A DNA stretch of 64,000 bases from assembly GCA_902595815.1 (NCBI GenBank), contig CACJRL010000002.1, forward strand, positions 62,001 through 126,000. Direction: 5' to 3'. Made by a program: the position numbers and the translations under genes. The notes under the pieces were generated by a model. That model saw nothing but the letters and a program-made list of their open reading frames with translations. It had not been told where the DNA came from and searched no databases. Shown here one piece after another: positions 26,972 to 29,340 of the stretch; positions within the stretch are counted from its first letter, which is position 1, and each line of letters begins with the position of its first letter. The DNA is from an uncultured Pelagibacteraceae bacterium. GTDB taxonomy: Bacteria; Pseudomonadota; Alphaproteobacteria; Pelagibacterales; Pelagibacteraceae.

Positions 26972-27797
26972 TACTCTTTTAGAGATTAATAATATTTATT
27001 TTATTTTTTTAATGATGGCAGCCGCTGTTCCAGTTGGTTTCTTTGCGGGATTTTTTGGAATTGGTGGGGGTTTGATATCTGTACCGTTTTTGTTTTTTGT
27101 GTTTGAAGCATTTAATGTAGATAAAGATTATTTAATGCATTTATCTGTAGGGACAGCTTTTTCAATAACAATTTTAACAGCTACAGCTTCAGTATTAACT
27201 CATAGAAAGTATAATGCTGTTGATTTTAATATTATAAAAAATTATGGAACATTTGTAATAATAGGCGTTTTTTCTGGAACATTGATGGCAGCATTGATGA
27301 ATACTAAAACTTTATTATTCTTTTTTTCTGTCGTTGTTTTCTTTTTTGGAGGTTATTTGTTGTTACAAAGTGAAAGGAAAAAAAAAATTAAAAAAAAATT
27401 TAATATTTTTCCTAGAATAATATTTGGATTTTTGTCAGGATTAATATCTGCTCCTATGGGCATAACAGGAGCTATGATGAATGTTCCTATATTAAGATAC
27501 TTTGGTTATCCTATTAACTTAGCAATAGGAAGCTCTGCAGCCATAGGATTTATAATAGCTTTATTTGGATCAATTGGTTTTTTTACATCTGGCTTAATGT
27601 TAAAAGCCGATATCCCACTCAGTATTGGATTTATTAATATACCTGCATTTATAATTTTTGTTCCAATAACCACATTCATGGCAAGGATTGGAGCAAAGAC
27701 AGTTCAAGATCTAGATAGAGTTAAAACACAAAGATTATTTGGTGTTTTTCTTTATGTTATTGGTACTTTATTTCTATATAGATTTTTAGTGACCTAG
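26964..27797 (+). CDS. TSUP (TauE/SafE) family membrane transporter
   Basis: GFFAGFFGIGGGLISVPFLFFVF and GFLSGLISAPMGITGAMMNVPIL. Confidence 0.9.
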   Translation: MNNTLLEINNIYFIFLMMAAAVPVGFFAGFFGIGGGLISVPFLFFVFEAFNVDKDYLMHLSVGTAFSITILTATASVLTHRKYNAVDFNIIKNYGTFVIIGVFSGTLMAALMNTKTLLFFFSVVVFFFGGYLLLQSERKKKIKKKFNIFPRIIFGFLSGLISAPMGITGAMMNVPILRYFGYPINLAIGSSAAIGFIIALFGSIGFFTSGLMLKADIPLSIGFINIPAFIIFVPITTFMARIGAKTVQDLDRVKTQRLFGVFLYVIGTLFLYRFLVT

Positions 27798-27832
27798 GAG
27801 ACGAGGTGGTTTCAGTCTCCCTCCGCCACCTC
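27797..27832. other. GC-rich interleaved inverted repeats (H-type pseudoknot topology)
   Basis: GGAGAC(27797-27802) pairs GTCTCC(27815-27820); GAGGTGG(27803-27809) pairs CCACCTC(27826-27832). 23/36 G+C in an AT-rich region. Confidence 0.6.
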
Positions 27833-27885
27833 AATTACATATTAATCGATTCTCTAATTTTTTCTTAACTCTTTATAGTTGAATT

Positions 27886-29340
27886 TTAAATTTTTTGATC
27901 ATAATCCCCAACTTTACCAGTTTGTTGAAGGAGATTATCAATAAAGTCAAAAATCTTCTTTTTTCTCTCTTCGGAGGTTGGACTTTCGGTAACTACAACT
28001 AAAGAGGGTTTATTAGAAGATGCTCTTATTAATCCCCAAGACCCATCATCAAAAGAAAATCTTACTCCATTAACAGTTAGTATTTCTCTAATTTCTTGAT
28101 CATCTACTTTAGTTTTATTTTCTTTAATGTTTGTTATTTCTTTAACTAAATTCTCAACTACGTCGTATTTTTCACTATCTTTACAATAAGGAGCCATAGT
28201 CGGACTTTGATAAGTTGTTGGTAATTCAGCAAGTATTTCACTCATTTTTTTGTTATTTTTATCGAGTAGCTTACAGACCTGTATTGCGGAATTAATTCCA
28301 TCATCATAGCCATATCCCAAAGGTTTATTAAAAAAGAAATGACCACTTTTTTCAAATCCTGCTAAAGCGTTATCGGTATTTACCTTTCTTTTGATATGGG
28401 AATGACCAGTTTTCCAATAAATTGTTTCACATTTATTTTCTTTTAATATTTTGTCATTGGAATAAAGTCCTGTCGATTTTACATCAACAATAAATTTACT
28501 GTTTTTATGATCTTTCGAAAGATTTCTAGCAATTAATAACCCTATTTTATCTGAAAAGATTTCATTACCTTTATCATCTATAACCCCAACTCTATCCCCA
28601 TCTCCATCAAAACCAAATCCAATATCAGCATTATTTTCTTTAACGGCTTTTGAAATTGCATGTAACATTTCTAAGTCTTCAGGATTTGGGTTGTATTTTG
28701 GAAAAGTCCAATCAAGTTCACAATCAAGTTCAATTACCTCGCACCCAATACTTCTTAAAATTTCTGGTGCAAATATTCCTGCTGTTCCATTGCCACAAGC
28801 AACTACTGCTTTAATTTTTTTATTTAATGGGTTTTTTGTTATCAAATCATTCTTATAAACATTGTGAAAATCATCAATTTTTTTTACATCACCTTCACCA
28901 TTAATAAAATTTTGATTTAGAGTAATATCTTTTAGTTCTTTCATTTCCTCAGGCGCATGAGTAAGTCCTTTTTTGATACCCATTTTTACACCCGTCCAAC
29001 CATTTTCATTATGACTAGCTGTAACCATAGCTATCGCATCTGAATTTAAATTAAATTGAGCGAAGTAAACCATCGGGGATAAAGATAATCCTATATCCTC
29101 GATTTTGCATCCAGTTGAAACTAAACCCTCTTTTAATTTTTCTTTGATATGTTCACTGTAAGACCTGTAATCTTGGCCAACAATAATTCTTGGATTGTTT
29201 TTCTTTGTATGATTAATTATTTGAGTTCCAAGACCTTTACCAAGTTGAACGATTCCATCGTCATCTATGTCTTTTTCGTATACCCATCGTGCGTCATATT
29301 CCCGAAAGCCGTAGGTATCAATTTTTCCCGAATTTTTCAT
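27886..29340 (-). CDS. Phosphomannomutase/phosphoglucomutase
   Basis: TASHNENGWTGVKMG, GFGFDGDGDRVGVIDDKG motifs. Confidence 0.94.
   Translation of the reverse strand: MKNSGKIDTYGFREYDARWVYEKDIDDDGIVQLGKGLGTQIINHTKKNNPRIIVGQDYRSYSEHIKEKLKEGLVSTGCKIEDIGLSLSPMVYFAQFNLNSDAIAMVTASHNENGWTGVKMGIKKGLTHAPEEMKELKDITLNQNFINGEGDVKKIDDFHNVYKNDLITKNPLNKKIKAVVACGNGTAGIFAPEILRSIGCEVIELDCELDWTFPKYNPNPEDLEMLHAISKAVKENNADIGFGFDGDGDRVGVIDDKGNEIFSDKIGLLIARNLSKDHKNSKFIVDVKSTGLYSNDKILKENKCETIYWKTGHSHIKRKVNTDNALAGFEKSGHFFFNKPLGYGYDDGINSAIQVCKLLDKNNKKMSEILAELPTTYQSPTMAPYCKDSEKYDVVENLVKEITNIKENKTKVDDQEIREILTVNGVRFSFDDGSWGLIRASSNKPSLVVVTESPTSEERKKKIFDFIDNLLQQTGKVGDYDQKI

Follow-up and report, generated by a model that had tools for sequence, protein, structure and literature searches.

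Hairpin in the tauE/pgm intergenic region

The window, i.e. the whole 64,000-nucleotide stretch of DNA analysed here, comes from an uncultured Pelagibacteraceae bacterium and harbours a short intergenic element flanked by the genes for TauE and phosphoglucomutase/phosphomannomutase (Pfam assignments; the latter pgm hereafter). The two genes are convergent in the window, with pgm ending at 27886 on the other strand. Two perfect, interleaved inverted repeats had been described in this gap by a sequence-only reading, and both were present. The 6-nt repeat comprises GGAGAC (27797-27802) and GTCTCC (27815-27820) with 12 nt between them, and the 7-nt repeat comprises GAGGTGG (27803-27809) and CCACCTC (27826-27832) with 16 nt between them. 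The repeats do start on the last base of the upstream stop codon, tauE ending at 27797. Folding energy of the element was unremarkable on either strand (z = -1.32 and -1.47 for the minus and plus strand, respectively). The 7-bp stem, which shows compensatory changes, and its loop are conserved beyond chance.

On the minus strand the 7-nt repeat forms a hairpin (27803-27832) consisting of the 5' arm GAGGTGG (27832-27826), a 16-nt loop CGGAGGGAGACTGAAA (27825-27810) and the 3' arm CCACCTC (27809-27803). The two arms vary in concert in the alignment (GAGGTGG/CCACCTC, GAGGTGA/TCACCTC, GGGTGG/CCACCC). A covariation check over homologues, as had been suggested, revealed compensatory changes in 6 of 8 pairs of this stem, and 94.9% of its cells were paired among 99 distinct SAR11 copies. 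The loop, YTTCAGTCTCCCT in plus-strand reading, hardly varies in the SAR11 alignment, and its core GGGAGACTGAA (27811-27821, minus strand) is near-invariant in SAR11 copies. The module is thus a near-invariant loop motif, GGGAGACTNAA, on a stem of free sequence. An additional A9-U17 pair inside the loop was rejected, as position 9 varies and position 17 does not.

The interleaved repeats had been interpreted as an H-type pseudoknot, in which GTCTCC directly 3' of the hairpin (27797-27802, minus strand) would pair with GGAGAC of the loop. In the window neither stem has a mismatch, close relatives retain GTCTCC, and two of its variants still form G-U pairs on the minus strand. However, GTCTCC was present in only 6 of 99 distinct 3' flanks, with one-base variants in 2 more, and the same 99 copies showed no second-helix pair with a change on both sides, so the covariation check gave no compensatory change for the 6-bp stem. 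The plus-strand GGAGAC at 27797-27802 is kept only in near-identical genomes of the window's own clade, and everywhere else the GGAGAC of the minus-strand loop is retained without a pairing partner. The second stem is clade-specific, and a pseudoknot is extremely improbable.

Occurrence among SAR11 genomes

BLAST analysis of 81 bases against 60 related genomes revealed one clear copy in about 20 genomes of the same genus. With a covariance model, the element was found in 133 of 247 genomes of the order, all matches but one (marginal, E 0.09) falling within two genera of one family (f1), and most Pelagibacteraceae genomes with a match carried one orthologous copy. In a separate genome scan, all 80 of the 80 genome-contig matches listed had titles naming Pelagibacteraceae or Pelagibacterales/Pelagibacter, that is, SAR11. 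Some genomes carry two copies; two diverged copies lie about 0.5 kb apart in genome G244 (L057) and 3.3 kb apart in genome G147 (L053). About 20 well-assembled genomes of the same genus yielded no convincing copy, and the element is therefore not essential. Weak matches in these genomes (24-28 bits, without the hairpin) were judged to be chance, as were weak model matches antisense inside a coding gene (L061, L062 and L200).

Strand, upstream blocks and neighbouring genes

The strand assumed earlier was wrong. Three kinds of sequence evidence, namely T-tracts, G-U pairs and the direction of phage genes, agree that the RNA is read on the minus strand. Of 169 SAR11 copies, 98 have a T-tract 3' of the hairpin on this strand, as compared to 1 of 169 on the plus strand. 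The earlier remark that no T-tract is present therefore stands for the window genome, on both strands, but does not extend to its relatives. In minus-strand reading the stem cells included 57 G-U against 28 A-C combinations (57 against 14 without the outermost pair). In 83 of 106 viral places both flanking phage genes have the same orientation as the loop strand, and in 8 both have the opposite one.

The extent given earlier was too short, since conservation continues for 50 bases upstream of the hairpin, up to 27883. In 5' to 3' order on the minus strand, there is a block TTCAAYTAWTAMGWGTT (27883-27867), an AT-rich spacer, the AGAATC motif (27855-27847 region), a short spacer and the hairpin. 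The conserved stretch AGAGAATCG (27847-27855, minus strand), with AGAATC as its core, is probably unpaired in the RNA; AGAATC was invariant in 20 copies and GAATC was conserved to at least 9/10 in 99 copies. The upstream block, TTCAACTATAAAGAGTT (27867-27883, minus strand), is conserved in the alignment and may be a promoter-like or regulator site. A mismatch-free match to it was found only at its own locus in each of 6 genomes searched, and it therefore belongs specifically to the element and does not represent a promoter of general use. No recognisable sigma-70 promoter and no conserved -35 box were detected in this block. In one subclade (L015, L060, L064, L065, L066) the block is displaced further upstream, and the same copies have an extra hairpin GATTCGCaaggaGAATC (GATTC..GAATC) formed with the AGAATC motif.

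Neighbouring genes vary among the copies. Upstream neighbours include pgm, a coiled-coil protein and a lipoprotein (the last two named from sequence by eye) and downstream neighbours include TauE, DUF2061 and a HIT protein (HIT named by eye), the next gene in SAR11 being usually convergent. The upstream gene was divergent in 59 of 169 copies. Because of these divergent genes and the varying neighbours, the element is best read as a gene of its own for a small RNA of about 70-90 nt on the minus strand. Its predicted ends are 27797 and 27866, as judged from conservation, the divergent upstream genes and the T-tracts in relatives. Neither the 3' UTR of pgm nor a terminator of tauE can account for the varying neighbours and the divergent upstream genes. 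A small structured RNA, one of the possibilities raised earlier, is compatible with the evidence, and so is a protein-binding site.

A DUF2061 membrane-protein gene was the downstream neighbour on the element's own strand in 45 of 169 copies (e.g. L047:1501-1603, L070). In about half of these, some 8 nt separate the hairpin from the ATG of this gene, which comes immediately after the T-tract, and the gene could be leaderless or under read-through control.

The hairpin in phages infecting SAR11

Variable stems tend to escape BLAST searches with hairpins of 30-50 bases, and viral sequences were therefore scanned by pattern. A hairpin-pattern scan of viral contigs revealed 15 that carry the hairpin without the upstream parts; AGAATC is missing from the phage copies. 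In wider patterns, only the loop and GG..CC were fixed. These matched 116 distinct viral places; in 98 of them the three inner pairs left free by the pattern are all complementary. The GGGAGACTRAA loop occurs in 106 viral places, which were chosen by that very pattern, and the loop sequences GGGAGACTTAA and GGGAGACTCAA occur in two cultured phages. For 58 phage/viral hairpins together with the window copy, a set preselected for pairing, the covariation score was 0.825 as compared to 0.203 when shuffled, and 92.7% of cells were paired as compared to at most 54.9% for slid partners. Because of this preselection, the 98 of 116 places provide the fairer test.

We scanned 27 whole phage records and checked the matches for the stem. 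The hairpin was present in 16 of 20 SAR11 phages, once per genome, with the exact loop in 12 and with loop variants on a perfect stem in HTVC304P, HTVC027P, HTVC168P and HTVC109P. It was not found in the SAR11 phages Eistla, HTVC119P, HTVC200P and HTVC023P, nor in any of the 7 related phages of other hosts, a small set of five Roseobacter phages and the cyanophages Syn5 and P-SSP7. The chance of such a split is about 4 in 10,000 if the records were independent; the phages are related, and the real strength of the split is therefore lower. A pattern scan of 289 genomes of the class matched two SAR11 genomes and gave one stemless site among the other 287.

The cultured examples are Pelagibacter phages, in which the hairpin lies between the genes for lysozyme and primase or between those for capsid and tail tubular protein A; in other viral groups it lies between a protein of unknown function and primase. 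In T7, the lysozyme/primase and capsid/tail tubular A gaps hold the RNase III site R3.8 and the T-phi terminator. The phage copies of the hairpin occupy these same gaps, but the T7 sites have, to our knowledge, no common loop sequence, whereas the present hairpins have a constant loop and occur singly in the genomes that carry them. Upstream of the hairpin in HTVC021P and HTVC031P, 24-mers did not recur beyond chance, and a phage promoter at this position was rejected.

The element might be no more than a conserved intrinsic terminator, serving pgm on one strand and tauE on the other. The convergent genes in the window and the T-tracts of relatives are in line with this, as is the location of phage copies in gaps where sibling phages carry other hairpins or terminators. 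The GC-rich stem plus U-tract of an intrinsic terminator is found in the 98 SAR11 copies mentioned above and is absent from the window copy and from most phage copies. Thus, 71 of 169 SAR11 copies are devoid of a T-tract, and only 12 of 106 phage copies have one within 14 nt. Moreover, terminators do not need a fixed loop, the upstream gene is divergent in 59 copies, and several Pelagivirus genomes have a separate terminator-like hairpin before the module. In the lysozyme/primase gap of L395-L398, for example, such a hairpin (CTAGTTAGAAATAGCTAG.. then GCGTTT) stands directly before the common one. A mere terminator is quite unlikely.

In phages the hairpin mostly lies 8-36 nt ahead of a start codon, often that of primase or tail tubular protein A, and there is a single copy per genome. 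This resembles an operator that acts in cis on the translation or processing of phage mRNAs and is recognised by a protein of host or phage, as in the coat-protein operator hairpins of RNA phages; the SAR11 small RNA would then be a decoy for that protein. The downstream genes, however, vary among phage groups and the next gene in SAR11 is usually convergent, and we regard an operator as unlikely.

Frequent adjacency to phage primase genes and the single copy per genome would also suit an element that acts as DNA, for example an inverted repeat bound by a protein, a site for single-strand priming or one related to integration. In HTVC019P (L395), a reversed tRNA-Cys-like stretch, seen by eye, directly follows the hairpin and is perhaps the phage attachment site, which would fit the last of these. 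Against a DNA element, the bias of G-U over A-C and the T-tracts fall on one and the same strand, and freely variable arms are not expected for a double-strand DNA-binding protein; such an element is very unlikely.

Comparison with known RNAs and candidate partners

No Rfam 15 family scored above its gathering threshold at the element in the window, the relatives or the phages. The two-piece alphaproteobacterial tmRNA suggested earlier was checked with ARAGORN and Rfam (tRNA-like ends, tag frame), with a negative result. A tRNA-Ser 3' end or attachment-site remnant, an idea formed by eye, was rejected as no tRNA model matched. A replication origin was also rejected, as DnaA boxes were at chance level and no GC-skew switch was seen at the site. 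The model of the rhtB sRNA, RF01814, did not match at the element, and identity with the published rhtB element was rejected on account of the different locus and model. In one genome (G066, 1,308,759 bp), RF01814 scored 90 bits at the place published for rhtB. We take this genome to be HTCC1062, which the position of the rhtB match supports. The copy of the element in this genome (1142938-1143040) lies almost wholly within gap 1142870-1143031 of a Pelagibacter RNA survey, for which 29 BLAST hits were reported and no RNA was assigned (Meyer et al. 2009, PMC2704228). No description of the element was found in the main texts of the open-access literature, and the hairpin is, on these searches, a previously undescribed RNA element.

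The rhtB sRNA (Meyer et al. 2009, PMC2704228) is similar in being a single hairpin with a conserved loop in SAR11, with a U-tract in about half of its copies and no one fixed neighbour, but differs in sequence and locus. The SAR11_0636 element of the same study (PMC2704228) was likewise proposed as a stand-alone SAR11 small RNA with variable neighbours; it is a published three-stem junction, whereas the present element is one hairpin. The manA and wcaG RNAs (Weinberg et al. 2010, PMC2864571) are also structured RNAs shared by marine bacteria or metagenomes and marine phages. They precede metabolic genes, in contrast to the single fixed-loop hairpin with a SAR11 host link reported here.

We looked for possible partners in six SAR11 (Pelagibacteraceae) genomes. 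Hfq and CsrA are the usual partners of sRNAs. Neither Hfq (PF17209) nor CsrA (PF02599) was detected in any of the six, while the controls were detected, and no partner protein was identified among these two candidates. The element does not resemble an Hfq-dependent sRNA, as Hfq was not found in the 6 genomes, nor a CsrA sponge of the CsrB/RsmZ type, as it has a single hairpin in place of repeated GGA loops. In a loop-only search for antisense targets, loop complements were not enriched in SAR11 genomes and no candidate emerged. Outside the element, 8 such sites were present in 7 genomes as compared to about 20 to 28 expected, a depletion which argues against many antisense targets via the loop. 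The loop complement, TTYAGTCTCC, was about 3 times rarer outside the element than window-derived Markov models predict (G062, G063, G066, G067, G068, G070, G012). The only other exact site in the window's own genome (C28) is antisense to a coding frame by eye and was rejected.

Proposed role of the hairpin

We consider it probable, on sequence comparison, that the element is a minus-strand small-RNA gene of Pelagibacteraceae whose hairpin is both the 3' end and a loop-recognition module common to phages. The comparison itself establishes the structure, its strand, its distribution and its presence in phages. The RNA would probably start just past the promoter-like block (27867-27883), carry the unpaired AGAATC stretch and finish with the 3'-terminal hairpin, followed in more than half of the copies by a U-tract that would act as terminator. 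The hairpin would be the recognition module, in which any pairing stem may serve provided that GGGAGACTNAA stays constant in the loop. SAR11 phages have this module alone, as a single intergenic copy in each genome that carries it.

A partner that reads the loop would need just this combination, a constant loop on a stem free to change. Since SAR11 viruses have nearly the same loop, a shared binding partner is indicated, and because different phage groups with a SAR11 host have the hairpin in common, this partner should exist in SAR11. We therefore propose that a SAR11-encoded factor, a protein or an RNP, may read the loop, and that phages may carry the hairpin to use or titrate this factor. 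Whether the hairpin would act by processing, stabilising, repression or titration cannot be told from the sequence. More tentatively, as a possibility that we hold to be less likely than not, SAR11 and its phages may share one RNA recognition code, in which the small RNA is the cell's own source of the loop and each of the unrelated phage groups has one copy for capturing or recruiting the host factor during infection.

SAR11 are among the most abundant bacterial groups of the ocean and have few known regulators. The hairpin could serve as a specific bait for finding the putative protein partner, and an RNA module present in SAR11 as well as in several phage groups would be, for this clade, a rare handle on host-virus contact at the RNA level.
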